Positions 981 through 7,099 of a stretch of DNA of 11,294 bases are shown one piece after another. The stretch is from Propionibacteriaceae bacterium (GTDB lineage Bacteria > Actinomycetota > Actinomycetes > Propionibacteriales > Propionibacteriaceae). The first letter of the stretch is position 1. The number at the start of each line of letters is the position of its first letter. The notes under the pieces were generated by a model. The model worked only from the letters and a program-made list of their open reading frames with translations. It had not been told where the DNA came from and did not search any database. The position numbers and the translations under genes were made by a program. Location: assembly GCA_031255975.1 (NCBI GenBank), contig JAIRRM010000078.1, positions 1 to 11,294 of the forward strand, in the 5' to 3' direction.

Positions 981-2668
981 CAGTATCGGGTCAGTCTACG
1001 GTGTTTGCTGGCGTGTGGACGGGCGGCTTCCTCACCGAGACGCGCAACCTTGTTGGCCTCATAGTCGGCGTAGTTGCCCTCGTACCAGAACCACTGCGGT
1101 GTATTGCCGTCATCGCCATCCCCCTCCCAGGCGAGGATATGGGTCGCCACCCGGTCGAGGAACCAGCGGTCATGGCTGATTACCACGGCGCAGCCCGGAA
1201 ACTCCAAGAGGGCGTCCTCTAGCGATTGTAAGGTCTCCACGTCCAGATCGTTGGTCGGTTCGTCAAGTAGCAGCAGGTTGCCACCCTGTTTCAGGGTGAG
1301 GGCGAGGTTGAGGCGGTTACGTTCACCGCCCGAGAGCACTCCGGCGAGCTTTTGCTGATCCGGCCCCTTGAACCCGAATGATGCGACGTATGCCCGGCTC
1401 GGCACCTCGAAGTTGGCCACCTTGATGTGATCGAGGCCGTCGGAGACCACCTCCCACACGTTCTTCTTCCCGTCGATTCCGGCGCGCCCCTGATCGACAT
1501 AACTCAGCTTTACGGTTTCGCCGAGCTTGATGGTTCCGGAATCCGGGGTTTCCTCGCCGACACTCATCTTGAACAGGGTGGTCTTACCGACACCGTTAGG
1601 GCCGATGATGCCGACGATGCCCGCTTTCGGCAGATCGAAGCCGAGGCCGTCAAACAGCGCCCGGCCCTCGAAGCCCTTGACGATATTGTCAGCGACCAGC
1701 ACCACATTGCCAAGGCGGGGGCCGGGTGGGATATTGATCTCGGATACATCCAGTTTGCGAGAGCGTTCCGCCTCGGCTGCCAGTTCCTCGTAGCGGGCCA
1801 GGCGGGCTTTGTTCTTTGCTTGTCTGGCCTTCGGCGATGAGCGTACCCACTCCAGTTCGCGTTCCAGGATTTTGGCGCGCTTGGCGTCCTTCTGCCCCTC
1901 AATCTGCAAGCGTTTACGCTTGGTTTCGAGGTACGTGGAGTAGTTGCCCTCGTAGCCGATGAGCTGCCCGCGATCCACCTCGCAGATCCATCCCACCACG
2001 TTATCTAAGAAATAGCGGTCATGGGTGACGGCCAGTACTGCGCCGGGGTAGTTCTTCAAGTGGCCTTCCAGCCAGGCGACCGACTCGGCGTCCAGGTGGT
2101 TGGTTGGCTCATCGAGCAGCAACAGATCTGGCTGTTGCAGCAACAGCTTGCAGAGCGCCACACGGCGCCGCTCGCCGCCGGATAGCACATCCACCGGGGT
2201 ATCCCCAGGCGGGCACTGCAACGCATCCATCGCCTGTTCCAACTGCGAGTCGATGTCCCAAGCGTTGCGAGCGTCCAGTTCCGTTTGCAGCTCACCCATC
2301 TCGGCCAACAGCGTGTCGAAGTCGGCTTCCGGGTCGGCCATCGCCTCAGAGATTTCGTTGAAGCGCCGCAGCATCGTCTTGGTGGCGGCAACCGCTTCCT
2401 CGACATTCTCCAGCACCGTCTTGCCCTCGGTGAGTGGCGGCTCCTGTTGCAGGATGCCTACCGTCGCCTCTTTGGCCAACTGCGCTTCGCCGTTGTTGAT
2501 CGGCTCCAAGCCAGCCATCACTTTTAGCAGCGTGGACTTTCCGGCACCGTTCGGCCCGACGACACCGATCTTCGCATCCGGGTAGAAGGCCAGCGTGACG
2601 TTATCCAATATCACCTTCTCGCCCGCAGTCTTACGGACGTTCCGCATGGTGTAGATGAACTCCGCCAC
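980..2668 (-). CDS. ettA: ABC-F translation factor EttA (energy-dependent translational throttle A)
   Basis: This soluble protein has two ABC ATPase domains and no membrane segments. EttA binds the ribosomal E site and gates the first elongation steps according to ATP/ADP. Domain 1 has Walker A GPNGAGKST (38-46), signature LSGGE (162-166), Walker B LLLLDE with catalytic Glu187, and switch His216. Domain 2 has GPNGVGKTT (356-364), LSGGE (445-449), Glu470 and switch His499. Residues about 95-140 form the arm insertion of the EttA type. A charged linker rich in Lys, Arg and Glu (about 245-305) is the P-site tRNA-interacting motif region. The length of 562 aa is normal for EttA (about 555). The start is GTG at 2666-2668, with TAG immediately upstream in frame and a strong Shine-Dalgarno 8 nt away. 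It lies 174 bp downstream of the SSB gene. A C-terminal extension rich in Lys, Arg and His (about 550-562) is the only departure I see. Confidence 0.95.
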   Translation of the reverse strand: MAEFIYTMRNVRKTAGEKVILDNVTLAFYPDAKIGVVGPNGAGKSTLLKVMAGLEPINNGEAQLAKEATVGILQQEPPLTEGKTVLENVEEAVAATKTMLRRFNEISEAMADPEADFDTLLAEMGELQTELDARNAWDIDSQLEQAMDALQCPPGDTPVDVLSGGERRRVALCKLLLQQPDLLLLDEPTNHLDAESVAWLEGHLKNYPGAVLAVTHDRYFLDNVVGWICEVDRGQLIGYEGNYSTYLETKRKRLQIEGQKDAKRAKILERELEWVRSSPKARQAKNKARLARYEELAAEAERSRKLDVSEINIPPGPRLGNVVLVADNIVKGFEGRALFDGLGFDLPKAGIVGIIGPNGVGKTTLFKMSVGEETPDSGTIKLGETVKLSYVDQGRAGIDGKKNVWEVVSDGLDHIKVANFEVPSRAYVASFGFKGPDQQKLAGVLSGGERNRLNLALTLKQGGNLLLLDEPTNDLDVETLQSLEDALLEFPGCAVVISHDRWFLDRVATHILAWEGDGDDGNTPQWFWYEGNYADYEANKVARLGEEAARPHASKHRRLTRY

Positions 2669-2676
2669 CTAGTGCC

Positions 2677-2684
2677 CCTCTCCT
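2677..2684 (-). promoter_or_regulatory. Ribosome binding site of ettA
   Basis: The minus strand reads AGGAGAGG, followed by 8 nt and then GTG. This is the best Shine-Dalgarno match in the window. It fixes the non-ATG start of ettA, because a TAG stop sits directly before the GTG in the same frame. Confidence 0.75.
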
Positions 2685-2687
2685 GGT

Positions 2688-2769
2688 TGGCATACCTGTT
2701 TACGCGATGGACGGTCAACGGCCCTGGATAGGGCGCATTCCGACCACATAAGTATGCCAGCCAATTGGC
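2688..2769. repeat. Inverted repeat and palindrome in the ssb-ettA gap
   Basis: TGGCATAC (2688-2695) and GTATGCCA (2752-2759) form a perfect 8-bp inverted repeat separated by 56 bp. It abuts a perfect 10-bp palindrome, GCCAATTGGC (2760-2769). Neither is followed by a T run on the minus strand, so this is not a canonical intrinsic terminator. It may be a regulator site or mRNA structure between ssb and ettA. Confidence 0.4.
2689..2718 (-). promoter_or_regulatory. Possible ettA promoter
   Basis: The minus strand carries TTGACC (2713-2718), an 18-bp spacer and TATGCC (2689-2694), ending about 20 bp before the ettA start. The -35 match is good and the -10 match is weak (3 of 6). It could give EttA expression independent of the SSB gene upstream, but read-through from the ssb promoter is equally possible. 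The -10 overlaps one arm of the inverted repeat at 2688-2759. Confidence 0.25.
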
Positions 2770-2842
2770 AGCCGAATGGCATCAGGTTGCGCTGCGACGC
2801 CACCTGGTCACGGGGAAGCCCGCGTGTCTTGTGCGGTTGGAT

Positions 2843-3355
2843 TCATGTTGCCAACTCCGTCACGGCTTCGGCGCTGGTGCCAGGGCTGCTATCGTAATCC
2901 GTCGTGTCACCTTCGGGTGGCTCGGTATAACCGGTGAACTCCGCTGTCGCCATCTCGATGTTGGCCTCAGCGGGCGCGGCTTCGGTAGTTGGTTCCGCCG
3001 GACGGGCTCTACTCACCCGATTAAATGTGGACGTGCCCCAGGTCACGTCATGTCCGGCGGTGGTGGCGTCTAGATAGAGGTAATAGTTGATACGGCCCTC
3101 TCGCTCATACTTCCGGGTACGTACTCGCCCGGTGACCAGCACCGGATCACCCTTACGGAATGATGCTCGCACCCCCTCGGCGAGCCTGCCGGAACAGCGT
3201 ACTGTCATCCAGGTGGTTTCGTCGTCCTGCCAGCCACCGCTGCGCCACACCCGTGGCGTACACCCCAGCCGGAAGCTGGCGCTCTGGTAGCCGTCATGTT
3301 GCCGGAAGTCCACCTCGCCACCGACCAGTCCGTTCATCGTGATTATCGAATCCAT
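2843..3355 (-). CDS. Single-stranded DNA-binding protein paralogue (SSBb-like) without acidic C-terminal tip
   Basis: This 170-aa protein has an N-terminal OB-fold of the bacterial SSB family (about residues 3-105). The family features visible are TMNGLVGGEVDFR at the start, the aromatic strand TTWMTVRC (47-54), FRKGDPVLVTGRVRTRKYE (67-84) and YYLYLDATTAG (91-101). The tail (106-170) is low complexity and rich in Ala, Glu, Thr and Pro. It ends in TELAT rather than the DDDIPF-type tip by which housekeeping SSB recruits repair and replication proteins. Together with the position directly upstream of ettA, this points to the accessory actinobacterial SSB paralogue (as I recall, Rv2478c beside Rv2477c) rather than the essential ssb, which normally sits between rpsF and rpsR. 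The start is ATG at 3353-3355, and AAAGG about 8 nt upstream is the likely ribosome binding site. It probably binds ssDNA in a specialised context such as stress or recombination. Confidence 0.88.
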   Translation of the reverse strand: MDSIITMNGLVGGEVDFRQHDGYQSASFRLGCTPRVWRSGGWQDDETTWMTVRCSGRLAEGVRASFRKGDPVLVTGRVRTRKYEREGRINYYLYLDATTAGHDVTWGTSTFNRVSRARPAEPTTEAAPAEANIEMATAEFTGYTEPPEGDTTDYDSSPGTSAEAVTELAT

Positions 3356-3438
3356 AGCTTTTGCCTTTCGCTTCGAGACGCACTACTGCGTGTCTTCGTG
3401 CTGTCTCTAGTCGGCGAAAAGGCAAACCGGCCAGCGAA
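3356..3438 (-). promoter_or_regulatory. Structured 5' leader of the SSB-paralogue mRNA, hairpin burying its ribosome binding site
   Basis: In the minus-strand transcript, TTTGCCTTTTCGC (3414-3426) can pair with GCGAAAGGCAAA (3360-3371). This gives 12 base pairs with a single bulged base. The downstream arm contains AAAGG, the only Shine-Dalgarno-like sequence before the ssb ATG, and ends 4 nt before that ATG. The enclosed 42 nt form a smaller hairpin (arms 3376-3382 and 3387-3395, tetraloop 3383-3386). The leader length of about 83 nt assumes transcription starts near 3438, as the promoter predicts. The pairing is directly visible; a regulatory role (translational control, RNA thermometer, protein-binding leader) is inferred. 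It matches no riboswitch class I know. Confidence 0.5.
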
Positions 3439-3444
3439 TCCGAA

Positions 3445-3473
3445 ATTGTGGATAACTATTTCCACCTCGTCAA
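3445..3473 (-). promoter_or_regulatory. Sigma70-type promoter of the SSB-paralogue gene
   Basis: The minus strand reads TTGACG (3468-3473; 5 of 6 to consensus), a 17-bp spacer and CACAAT (3445-3450; 4 of 6). This is the best promoter match I found in the window, and it lies in a locally AT-rich patch. Predicted transcription starts near 3438, about 83 nt before the ssb ATG. One DnaA box overlaps its -10 element and another ends 2 bp upstream of its -35. Confidence 0.55.
3447..3455 (-). promoter_or_regulatory. DnaA box 1 (perfect TTATCCACA), overlapping the -10
   Basis: The minus strand reads TTATCCACA, a perfect match to the consensus box bound by the replication initiator DnaA. It covers the end of the spacer and four bases of the -10 element (3445-3450), so bound DnaA would be expected to block RNA polymerase. 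Confidence 0.6.
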
Positions 3474-3475
3474 CC

Positions 3476-3484
3476 TGTGGATAA
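3476..3484 (-). promoter_or_regulatory. DnaA box 2 (perfect TTATCCACA), just upstream of the -35
   Basis: This is a second perfect TTATCCACA in the same orientation, 29 bp from box 1; the shared direct repeat extends to GTTATCCACA. It ends 2 bp before the TTGACG element. A perfect 9-mer is expected less than 0.1 times by chance in both strands of a window this size, so two within 40 bp is unlikely to be accidental. Confidence 0.6.
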
Positions 3485-3539
3485 CTCGCCCAGCGGTACT
3501 GGCGCAAGCGTACGGCCCAGACGTGGCCAATTGGGCAAG

Positions 3540-5183
3540 CTACGGCAACGCTCGGGCCAACGCGGCGACAAATCGGGCGTAACGCTCCAATTCGGTGTTC
3601 ACCGGAATGAGCACCGCTTGGTCAGCGACCCGGCGTACCGATTGCTGTAGCGCCGCGGTGGCTTTGGCGGCGCGGTTGTTGGCAGATATTCGCACTCCGA
3701 AGCTGACCAACAGCCCCAACAAAAACCCGGCTAGCAGCGCTCCGCCGAACAACCAGGTCGGCACCGGTGTGTCATGCCACATCGGGCGAGGCAGCGGTTT
3801 CATCCCGAAGTATTCGGTGATCGGCCCAGACCCCAGCCAAGCCAGCCCTAACACGGCAATGGCTAGTAACCCCCACTGCAACACACGCACCAAGCGCCAC
3901 CAGCCGATAGCGGCAGACGTTCCCAGGTCGGTGGTGGCGACGGCGGCGTCCAACTCATCAGACAATGCGGCCTCATGCGACAGGCTCGCTTGCCGGATGG
4001 CTTTTGCCCAGCCCAGGCTGAGGCCGGGTGACACGTCATCGGACAGATCGCGTAGCGCGGTACTCACCTGGGCGCGTTGTACGTCGGACGAGCGTAGCGC
4101 AGTACGTTGCGCCGTGTTATCGGCGGCGTTGACGGTGGAATCCGAGGTAGCCGTGACTCTGGTTCCGGGCAGCAACGCCCCCAAATGCAATCGTTTAAGC
4201 GGGTCGGGGCGCAGTCTTCCGATCCAGGAGAGCAGCGGCCAGCCTGTCGCCACGCCGCCGCGGATTCGGGTGGATTGTCGTACCGCATCCGAGACCTGAG
4301 CAACCCCGGCGGCAGACGATAACGCGGCGACCAACTTCCCGGCCCGCTCGTCCGACACCCGCCGATTGCGATTCCGGTTGAGATCGCCGGAGAGTGCCAA
4401 CGCACCGGCCTCCACATCGTGCAGCAGTCTGGCGGCCGCCAGCCGCTTCGTCTTCACCAGCGCCGCCACCTCGGCTTGCAATGCTGCCACACCGTCGCCG
4501 GTCAGCGCCGAGGTGGTCAACACCTTAGCCTTGTCAAGCCCTTCCGCACTCAACAGAGTGCGCAGATGTTCCCGGGCTGCCGCCAGATCGATGGGGGAGA
4601 GCTTGTCGGATTGGTTCAGCACCACCAGCATTACGTCCGCGTACGCACTGAAACGACTCAGATACCCCTCATGCAGCGCGTTGTCGGCGTACTTCTGCGG
4701 ATCGAGCACCCAGATCAGTCCATCGACCAACCTAACCAGCCGATCCACCTCGGTACGGTGTGACACCGCAGTGGAGTCATGATCCGGTAAATCGAGCAGC
4801 ACCAGACCGTCCAGCTGGGTGGCTCCGGCGTCCAGTCGGTGCCGGAGCGGTACCTCCATCCAGTCCAGCAGATCATCAGGCATGGTTCGGCCCCAGACGG
4901 CGGCCATGGCGCGCCCGGTGGTGGGACGTTTCACCCCAGGCAGCGCTAGCTGTGTACCGGAGATGGCGTTGAACAGGCTGGATTTGCCGGAGCCGGTGGC
5001 CCCAGCCAACGCGATAACGGTGTGGTCGCCCGAGAACGCCAAGCGGCGATCTACCTGACGGGTGGCGCGCAATGCCTGGGCTACGTCGGCTTCTGGGCTC
5101 CGGCCCGCGGCGTACCCGGCGGCCTCTCGCAGTGCGGCGGCCCGATTAGCGAGTAGGGATGAAACGGGGAGCTTGGTTGTCAT
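3540..5183 (-). CDS. Dynamin-like membrane GTPase, second of a tandem pair (Streptomyces DynB type)
   Basis: This is a 547-aa GTPase anchored in the membrane. The G domain occupies about residues 50-250: P-loop GATGSGKSS (61-69), PTTGR (87-91) with the switch I Thr, G3 DLPDHDS (131-137) and G4 NQSD (190-193). A long helical middle (about 250-425) follows. Two hydrophobic segments at about 431-451 and 475-496 flank a short Pro-rich loop, and a basic, Ala-rich C-terminal helix comes after them. This architecture resembles the actinobacterial DynA/DynB dynamin-like proteins; in Streptomyces these act at sporulation septa and stabilise FtsZ rings. The start ATG (5181-5183) overlaps the stop of the preceding GTPase gene as ATGA, which implies coupled translation and probably a heteromeric complex. 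The exact role here is inferred from that resemblance; a general GTPase of the Era/HSR1 superfamily is the fallback reading. Confidence 0.85.
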   Translation of the reverse strand: MTTKLPVSSLLANRAAALREAAGYAAGRSPEADVAQALRATRQVDRRLAFSGDHTVIALAGATGSGKSSLFNAISGTQLALPGVKRPTTGRAMAAVWGRTMPDDLLDWMEVPLRHRLDAGATQLDGLVLLDLPDHDSTAVSHRTEVDRLVRLVDGLIWVLDPQKYADNALHEGYLSRFSAYADVMLVVLNQSDKLSPIDLAAAREHLRTLLSAEGLDKAKVLTTSALTGDGVAALQAEVAALVKTKRLAAARLLHDVEAGALALSGDLNRNRNRRVSDERAGKLVAALSSAAGVAQVSDAVRQSTRIRGGVATGWPLLSWIGRLRPDPLKRLHLGALLPGTRVTATSDSTVNAADNTAQRTALRSSDVQRAQVSTALRDLSDDVSPGLSLGWAKAIRQASLSHEAALSDELDAAVATTDLGTSAAIGWWRLVRVLQWGLLAIAVLGLAWLGSGPITEYFGMKPLPRPMWHDTPVPTWLFGGALLAGFLLGLLVSFGVRISANNRAAKATAALQQSVRRVADQAVLIPVNTELERYARFVAALARALP

Positions 5184-7099
5184 GCCGGCTCACCGTCCTC
5201 GTCATCCTCCGGCGACTGTGGGGCAGGCACATCGGTTATCTCCGTAAGGTCGGTCGCATCCAGGTCGATCACGATAGGGTCGTCTTCTACCAACTCGGCA
5301 TCCACGATGTCGTCGTCTTCTGGTTCCAATCGAATCGGTGCCGTGATCGATAGGAGTTCATCCTGCGGGGGCAGTTCGTTTGGCCCGCGACCCCCACTGC
5401 CAAGTTCGTGTTCACGGCGCAACTCTTTGATCGCCTCGGTGATCTTACGCAACCGTCTGGGTTGCCGGGTGTCGAGACCCAACCCGTCCAATACCACGGT
5501 GAAGCGTGCTAATTCTCCGGCCAGTAGCCCTTGCACTCGGGCAGCGAGGTCATCGCGGGCCGTCTGCGCCAGAGTTCTGACGGCGGTGTCGCCGAAGATG
5601 GACTCCAGCAGTTTCTGTGCCAATACGGTGGTACCACCGGCCACGCCCACCTCCGCGCCGGTCAGCCCGCCGGTGTTGGCGAAAATGAACAGCATCAGCG
5701 CCGCCCCAATGCCGTTCACGCCAGCGGCGGCGATACGGGCGGTGTTGCGTTTGGTTTTGCCCTCACTCGCCACCAGTTCGAGCACATCCGACTGCCATTC
5801 GCGGATGGTACGGGCCACCGCATCCTGGTAATGCGTCGACGAGCGGGCCAATTCTGGATGGGAGGTTATCAGATCGCGCCCGGCGGGGCTGCTTCCCCAC
5901 ACATCGGCTGCCCGTTCGGCGGCCGCGTCTCCAGCCTCGGTGAGTAGCGCCTCCAGGCCAGAACCCGCCGCCAACTGCACCTGGGCACCTGCCTGGGGCT
6001 GGGTGCGGAACAACCCGGAAAGCTTGTCTTTCAGCCACGACACTTTGGCGTCAATCGCTTTGCTGAACTCGGAAGTGCCGACATACTCATGCCAGCGAGA
6101 CAACACTTCACCACGCAGCAGGCTGCCATCAGACACCTGCGCCGCCACCACCCGGGCGGCTTCCTGGTAGGCGGCGGTGGCGTCTTCCCCCAATGTGGTG
6201 GCGGCGTTCACTTGGTCGTCTATCGCCAGCGCCACAGCCTGCACTTTTTGGACGACGTTGCCGATGGCACCGTCCAGGGTCTGCGCCACTACGGCGCGCC
6301 GTTCGTTCGCATCAGTCGCCAGGGCTGCCAGCCAGGCGCGCAGTTCGGCGACGACCGCATCGGGCAGTAACCCTGCGGCATCCGTGGTTGTCTCGGGGAT
6401 CACGAACTCTGGCACCTGGGCGAGACCCCGTTCGTCCATCATTCGCCGTAGGTCGGCGGGCACGATGGTTACGGCCTCGGGCGGTACCCGGTTCAACACC
6501 ACCGCCATGGCCACCGCGCGATCGGCGGCGGCGGTGAGGAAGTCCCACGGCACCGCGTCGGAGTAGCGGGCGGCGGAGGTGACGAACAGCCATAGGTCGG
6601 CGGCGGCCAGCAGAGTGTCCGCCAGGGCGCGGTTCGTGGAAACCACCGAGTCGATGTCGGGCGCGTCCAACAGCGCTAGTCCCAGCGGCAGACTGGGCTC
6701 TGATACCAACTGCAACGCGGTGGGGGTGTCGGATTGGGCGCGGGTACGGGTGAGCCCCGCCAATATGCGATCGTCATCGAACCAGTGTTCGTCGCCCGGG
6801 TGGTACACCAATACCGGTGATTTGGTGGTGGGGCGCAGCACGCCGGGGCGGGTAACCACCCGCGCCAGCAATGAATTGACCAGCGTGGACTTTCCGGCTC
6901 CGGTGGAACCGCCGACGACTGCCAACAGGGGAGCTTCCAGGTTTGCCAACCGAGGCAGCACATAATCACCCAGCTGTCCCGACACCTTACGCGCCGTGGT
7001 CACTGTGGCTGCGGCATCCGGTAGTGGGAGCGGCAGTGAGACCTGCGTCAATTCGCGGCGTAACTCCTTAAGGGAGTGTTCGAGCCCTGCCGCCATCAT
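5180..7099 (-). CDS. Dynamin-like membrane GTPase, first of a tandem pair (Streptomyces DynA type), acidic tail
   Basis: This is a 639-aa protein with an N-terminal G domain: P-loop GGSTGAGKST (63-72), RPTT (89-92) and G3 DAPDID (145-150). The G4 position reads NRVP (203-206) instead of N/T-K-x-D, so base recognition is degenerate. A long helical stalk (about 265-450) leads to a hydrophobic, Gly-rich stretch (about 455-500) that likely dips into or crosses the membrane. A further helix follows, then a very acidic tail (about 592-639) rich in Asp and Glu. The gene starts 21 bp after the PrsW-family gene and overlaps the next GTPase gene by 4 bp. The start may be the first ATG (7097-7099) or the adjacent second ATG (7094-7096). 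AAGGA at 7104-7108 is 4 nt from the first and 7 nt from the second, which favours the second. It likely partners with the downstream GTPase in membrane remodelling. Confidence 0.85.
   Translation of the reverse strand: MMAAGLEHSLKELRRELTQVSLPLPLPDAAATVTTARKVSGQLGDYVLPRLANLEAPLLAVVGGSTGAGKSTLVNSLLARVVTRPGVLRPTTKSPVLVYHPGDEHWFDDDRILAGLTRTRAQSDTPTALQLVSEPSLPLGLALLDAPDIDSVVSTNRALADTLLAAADLWLFVTSAARYSDAVPWDFLTAAADRAVAMAVVLNRVPPEAVTIVPADLRRMMDERGLAQVPEFVIPETTTDAAGLLPDAVVAELRAWLAALATDANERRAVVAQTLDGAIGNVVQKVQAVALAIDDQVNAATTLGEDATAAYQEAARVVAAQVSDGSLLRGEVLSRWHEYVGTSEFSKAIDAKVSWLKDKLSGLFRTQPQAGAQVQLAAGSGLEALLTEAGDAAAERAADVWGSSPAGRDLITSHPELARSSTHYQDAVARTIREWQSDVLELVASEGKTKRNTARIAAAGVNGIGAALMLFIFANTGGLTGAEVGVAGGTTVLAQKLLESIFGDTAVRTLAQTARDDLAARVQGLLAGELARFTVVLDGLGLDTRQPRRLRKITEAIKELRREHELGSGGRGPNELPPQDELLSITAPIRLEPEDDDIVDAELVEDDPIVIDLDATDLTEITDVPAPQSPEDDEDGEPA

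Follow-up and report, generated by a model that had tools for sequence, protein, structure and literature searches.

The ComX/SigX, ComK, and CRP-S/Sxy regulons include ssbB, dprA, comEA, comF, and recA, and DnaA acts as a transcription factor at dnaA, at nrdAB, and in the B. subtilis DnaA regulon. As at those DnaA-regulated promoters, DnaA boxes lie upstream of the promoter at the locus described here. We know of no DnaA regulon made of competence genes. The element at this locus is built around DnaA-type boxes and has no known resemblance to the sites of the ComX/SigX, ComK, and CRP-S/Sxy regulons. It resembles those regulons in that a single element serves scattered pilus, uptake, ssDNA-binding, and recombination genes (PMC8467076 in part).

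Natural transformation of M. luteus depends on Flp/Tad pili (PMC4322843, PMC8467076, PMC6667448, PMC12849477), and work in that organism found com and tad genes plus a cpaB/HTH_17 locus (PMC8467076). M. luteus is comparable with the present case in being an actinomycete whose machinery is of the same kind, with comEA/EC and tad genes and with a SAF gene, cpaB-like, that transformation requires; it differs in that the accessible text of the published accounts mentions neither a promoter element nor a DnaA box and calls the regulator unidentified (PMC8467076, PMC6667448, PMC12849477). As of 2026, the upstream signals or cascade of M. luteus competence were described in the accessible text as still to be identified (PMC12849477). 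In Streptococcus pneumoniae, more DnaA or arrested forks induce competence (PMC8394987); the route proposed there differs, running through arrested forks and comCDE, and the term "DnaA box" does not occur in the accessible text (PMC8394987). A literature search at the level of titles and the openings of abstracts found no report of DnaA boxes at actinomycete competence promoters.

The window is the whole 11,294-nucleotide stretch of DNA that was analysed, in contig C115 of the genome of a Propionibacteriaceae bacterium (G000; 1.607 Mb, 212 contigs, 88.6% complete). The features upstream of its SSB paralogue are listed below; "8/8" refers to an alignment of the eight elements of this genome described further on.

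3476-3484, minus strand: box1, TTATCCACA, DnaA-type; about −88 to −80 relative to the predicted start
3447-3455, minus strand: box2, TTATCCACA, DnaA-type; about −59 to −51 relative to the predicted start; identical in 8/8
3423-3434, minus strand: second motif, CTGGCCGGTTTG, over the −35 region; contains TGGCCGGTTTG, identical in 8/8
3403-3411, minus strand: ACTAGAGAC, identical in 8/8, with the proposed −10 TAGAGA at 3404-3409
3397, minus strand: predicted start of transcription, placed 12 nt beyond the first TAGAGA base by analogy with leaderless sister genes
3356-3397, minus strand: putative 5' leader, some 42 nt long, ahead of the SSB paralogue
2843-3355, minus strand: SSB paralogue, 170 aa, SsbB-like (PF00436, E 7.8e-15)

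The two perfect boxes reported in the first-pass annotation are exactly where it had placed them, in the same orientation on the minus strand and 29 nt apart, start to start. TTATCCACA is the consensus DnaA box 9-mer, and the window contains no other perfect copy. The same annotation had drawn the boxes over the −10 and just upstream of the −35 of a TTGACG-N17-CACAAT promoter with a start near 3438. That pattern is present (one match, against a mean of 0.4 in shuffles); however, TTGAC was found near the boxes in only one of the eight sister elements, and we dropped TTGACG/CACAAT as the conserved promoter. The boxes do lie upstream of a promoter but not over its −10; the conserved promoter is lower, at 3403-3434, and predicts a start at about 3397 instead. 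The second motif CTGGCCGGTTTG is possibly the −35 or the site of another regulator.

As had been proposed, the next gene encodes an SSB paralogue (PF00436), which does not reach the thresholds set for SSB in NCBIfam. It is followed by a gene for an ABC-F-type ATPase (two ABC_tran domains and ABC_tran_Xtn), whose identity as EttA is only presumed. The gap between them is 174 nt and contains no terminator-like site (2600-3600 scanned), so read-through from ssbB into the ABC-F gene may occur. A hairpin in the ssbB leader, scored together with 16 nt of coding sequence, was not significant (z −1.28). Directly upstream of the element is a pair of neighbouring GTPase genes that match Dynamin_N weakly (3540-7099), and beyond that pair lie a PrsW protease gene and a BioY/CbiQ/ABC set.

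Counts over the whole genome showed TTATCCACA 32 times, compared with three occurrences of the reversed control pattern, and many of the copies were paired. The paired copies define a composite element consisting of box1, about 20 nt, box2, 14 or 15 nt, GGCCGG, TGGCCGGTTTG, and then ACTAGAGAC, with the distance from GGCCGG to ACTAGAGAC fixed at 21 nt in all eight copies; the pair in the window is the upstream half of one such element on the minus strand. Because the downstream-half pattern occurs eight times in this genome and not once in reversed form, the box pair in the window is far from chance. The elements were gathered from DNA alone, without choice by gene, so the gene set behind them was not built in. 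Naming those genes with Pfam and NCBIfam gave the following assignments.

Element 1: SSB paralogue (window)
Element 2: SLBB+HhH protein, then a Competence-domain protein (ComEA-ComEC)
Element 3: TadZ-like Ssd/CpaE homologue (TIGR03815); its cluster also encodes a T2SSF protein
Element 4: DUF4244 protein (pilin-like), presumably a Flp-like pilin
Element 5: SAF-domain protein, CpaB-like (TIGR03177 below its cut-off)
Element 6: M23 peptidase
Element 7: DUF4192 protein
Element 8: Gp49-like protein

Uptake, pilus, or ssDNA-binding genes thus stand behind five of the eight elements; the other three genes (M23, DUF4192, and Gp49) are not classical members of such a set. Conservation supports the earlier suggestion that the boxes are control sites for the SSB paralogue, but the genes they link it with are those of natural transformation and not ettA in particular. 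A profile built from the eight elements (R1) gave 17 matches in this genome at E values up to 10, the eight themselves at the top. The weaker matches lie before a Phd/YefM antitoxin gene (C144:1807, E 1e-5), before UPF0102-ComM-DprA (C91:5477, E 0.005), and at a site without an assigned gene (C144:533, E 0.018), followed by six short matches (E 0.7-7). Perfect boxes within the described elements account for 17 of the 32 in the genome, two of these being in weak elements. A mobile repeat was considered and rejected: the eight copies share only short motifs at fixed spacing, and their intervening and flanking sequences differ. Toxin-antitoxin-like and PDDEXK_2 genes were also seen behind the element here (C171, L022; C144, L033) and in the relative G006 (L056 and L052); they could be competence-linked or recent insertions.

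R1 was run across 57 genomes, G000 included, and matched five: G000, G006 (11 matches), G005 (5), G002 (1), and G018 (1). In G005 the elements precede genes for a pilin, a ComF protein (under its NCBIfam cut-off), M23, SAF, and ComEA. Those of G006 precede pilin, M23, SAF, TadZ-like, DUF4192, ComEA, and UPF0102 genes; the other four of its 11 elements belong to a PDDEXK_2 protein, a toxin-antitoxin-like pair, an unrecognised 130-aa protein, and one site without an assigned gene. A second profile (R2), made from 21 elements, had matches in 15 of 147 family genomes, among them one new weak match each in G005 (C59) and G006 (C132). Outside G000, G005, and G006, all 19 matches (18 from R2 plus the R1 match of G002) lie before genes of the same set: ssbB in five, M23 in four, DUF4192, ComF, and pilin in two each, and ComEA, TadZ-like, UPF0102, and RecA in one each. 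Twelve of these 19 genes were tested against family models and the remainder were assigned by resemblance.

A third profile (R3), from 24 elements, found 12 elements in G018, which was assigned to Cutibacterium by the identity of the DNA upstream of ssbB with that of a named record (L098, L159). All 12 precede genes of the same set, encoding DUF4192, TadZ-like, SSB, M23, pilin, RecA, and six nuclease-like paralogues. DUF559/MTES_1575-like nuclease paralogues are behind 6 of the 12 elements in G018 (L099, L101, L103, L105, L110, L112), and three more are behind elements in G103 (L117-L119). Four of the six G018 proteins were compared with Pfam; MTES_1575 was under its cut-off in all four and DUF559 over its cut-off in two. 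When R3 was run over 394 genomes of the class, nine had matches, strong only in G000 and G018; in each of the other seven there was a single weak match (E 4.9e-4 to 5.7e-3), and no recognised competence gene lay behind any of these. Thus the full composite is a family-level feature, and the box alone reaches further. Upstream of recA in Cutibacterium (L107, L125) and G103 (L121) there is a box pair, and below it a sequence similar to the consensus of the RecA-NDp/PafBC damage promoter; recA may be under both controls.

The geometry was tabulated for 39 elements, 19 from the window's genus, 12 from G018, and 8 from G103; the table omits the remaining genomes of the family, as well as L033-L035, L044, L050, L052, L055, L056, L059, and, from G103, L116 and L122. 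A partner box occurs 26-43 nt upstream of box2 in 38 of the 39, counting either strand and leaving the third base free. Same-strand pairs are 27-31 or 40-41 nt apart in the window's genus, 30-34 and once 43 in G018, and 40 and once 33 in G103, and the spacing of inverted pairs is 26-30 or 39 nt. In 32 of the elements an ORF of >70 aa opens with ATG or GTG 58-60 nt after box2 (one of the 39, L046, has a further, earlier in-frame start); the seven exceptions precede ssbB (2), pilin (3), and recA (2). TAGAGA is usually 12 nt before the start codon, which is −12 to −7 of a leaderless start, and this position suggests that it is the −10. The element promoter is therefore predicted to be mostly leaderless, and leaderless mRNAs are prevalent in P. 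acnes, according to the accessible text of one report (PMC3848588). Box pairs on one strand in L116 (G103) and L126 (G108), with spacings of 40 and 41 nt, have no recognisable gene behind them and are exceptions to the regulon pattern.

That a composite promoter is common to these genes is strongly supported by the sequence comparisons. One cis-element is found before scattered uptake, pilus, and DNA-processing genes, and we put at roughly 60% the probability that the box promoter marks the natural-transformation regulon of this Propionibacteriaceae bacterium, with DnaA as its activator. The members of such a regulon would be Tad/Flp-type pilus genes, ComEA-ComEC, the SSB paralogue, UPF0102-ComM-DprA, a peptidoglycan hydrolase, and DUF4192, joined in relatives by ComF, RecA, and nuclease-like proteins. 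DnaA would bind the two boxes and activate a weak promoter immediately below them. Box2, at about −59 to −51, keeps an almost constant distance from the start, and box1 is located some 29 nt above box2. Competence would in this case track how much DnaA there is or how active it is, in other words the state of replication. From sequence we infer transformability (from these genes), DnaA as the binder, activation as opposed to repression, the start site, and the signal. The set also includes genes not known for uptake, namely 4 of the 11 behind elements in G006 and the Gp49-like and antitoxin genes in G000.

The identity of the binding protein was considered by comparing the element boxes with those of oriC. 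In G000 two copies of TTATCCACA lie in oriC, between dnaA and dnaN, and such a box occurs within 1.2 kb downstream of dnaA in 16 of 19 genomes with a dnaA locus, the three without it including G103. Base 3 of the box agrees with oriC in the window's genus but not in G188 and G186; its freedom to be A, G, or T is the same for oriC boxes and element boxes. We consider DnaA the probable binder. Since TTNTCCACA is a short sequence and parts of the elements besides the box are conserved, a protein other than DnaA could be the master regulator. One candidate is a dedicated transcription factor that reads a DnaA-box-like site in the same competence regulon, DnaA being uninvolved. This is consistent with the departure of base 3 from oriC in two genomes (in G188 the box downstream of dnaA is TTGTCCACA and the one before DUF4192 is TTATCCACA; in G186 it is the other way round), with the nearly constant G preceding the box in elements, and with HTH_17 genes in all five genomes searched; in M. 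luteus an HTH_17 gene adjoins cpaB and, as the accessible text has it, its mutations alter comEA/EC expression (PMC8467076). However, the 9-mer also occurs at the oriC of the same genome, with equal freedom at base 3, and the HTH_17 and Sigma70_r2 searches gave candidates without a tie to the regulon. We regard a dedicated factor as unlikely.

A second candidate is an alternative sigma factor or second activator that reads TGGCCGGTTTG and TAGAGA as the master switch, with the boxes only tuning expression and DnaA as a modulator. In G000, TGGCCGGTTTG and ACTAGAGAC vary no more than box2 does, neither of the hexamers fits sigma-70 well, and there are 4-6 Sigma70_r2 genes per genome. Between genera, however, TGGCCGGTTTG and the −10 vary, whereas the box is constant within the element, and the box alone precedes ssbB, comEA, and DUF4192 in other families; a switch of this kind is accordingly quite improbable. 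DnaA, a factor with a DnaA-like site, and a second master regulator could also act jointly.

The occurrence of the box in other families was examined upstream of ssbB in the best 80 of 148 named loci, split by hand into 19 Propionibacteriaceae-like and 61 others. TT[AGT]TCCACA was present within 220 nt upstream of the match in 13 of the 19 and 24 of the 61, far more than in shuffles (means of 0.03 and 0.09 loci). Conservation of the boxes in relatives, which the first-pass annotation had named as a check, was found in part of them and was absent from some genera. The ssbB promoter of Acidipropionibacterium thoenii DSM 20276 (L140) has two boxes. Among these best 80 loci, the box was found in Jiangella (5/5), Streptomyces/Kitasatospora (8/8), and Nocardioides (4/8), but not in Bifidobacterium (0/10), Cellulomonas (0/12), or Nesterenkonia (0/5); the two closest named relatives (L133, L134) have TTCTCCACA instead. 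The upstream boxes in the best 80 numbered 56 on the strand of the gene and none on the opposite strand, and the remaining 246 kb of the ssbB loci had nine, likewise on the gene's strand.

In a sample of 60 class genomes, comEA had a match in 59 and DUF4192 in 47. A box was found upstream in 5 of the 29 best-scoring comEA loci fetched from other families (strand ratio 7:0) and in 9 of the 30 best-scoring DUF4192 loci fetched (9:2), compared with one box in 194 kb of their remaining sequence, and several of these boxes lie 48-62 nt from a start codon. A broader version of the preferred reading, to which we give somewhat less than an even chance, is that in a large part of the Actinomycetes DnaA would switch natural transformation on directly: a pair of boxes, near −55 and −85, would activate Tad-pilus, ComEA/EC, SsbB, DprA, ComF, RecA, DUF4192, and nuclease-like genes, uptake would occur when DnaA accumulates or replication stalls, and DUF4192 and the DUF559/MTES_1575-like nucleases would be unrecognised transformation proteins.

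The same data bear on the view that the boxes serve to titrate DnaA, or lie between genes by chance, and play no part in expression. Boxes do occur in many places, with 16-68 copies of TTRTCCACA per genome in the twelve family genomes counted; however, the share of perfect G000 boxes that lies in elements (17/32), the fixed distance to the start codon, the single strand, and the recurrence of the same genes make this view very improbable. That DnaA at the TTGACG/CACAAT promoter controls ssbB and ettA only is scarcely credible: the hexamers are present and no terminator-like site separates the two genes, but TTGAC is in just one of the eight sister elements, the conserved promoter lies below box2, and the element is common to the regulon.

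A defined element whose positions are known exactly in many named genomes makes the control of actinomycete competence immediately testable. The element is also a handle for predicting which actinomycetes co-control DNA uptake, and it adds DUF4192 and the nuclease-like family to the list of likely transformation genes. If DnaA binds, chromosome replication and horizontal gene transfer are directly wired together; the protein that starts replication may also help to switch on DNA uptake in actinomycetes.

DnaA-type boxes were also seen elsewhere. A cluster of them, not accompanied by the composite, lies upstream of a second SAF-domain gene (PF08666) in G000 (C69; L004 3693-3857) and in G103 (L132). 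In another contig of G000 (C191), two copies of TTATCCACA in opposite orientation, at L015 3019 and 3260, are located upstream of dnaB (3385; Pfam DnaB and DnaB_C).
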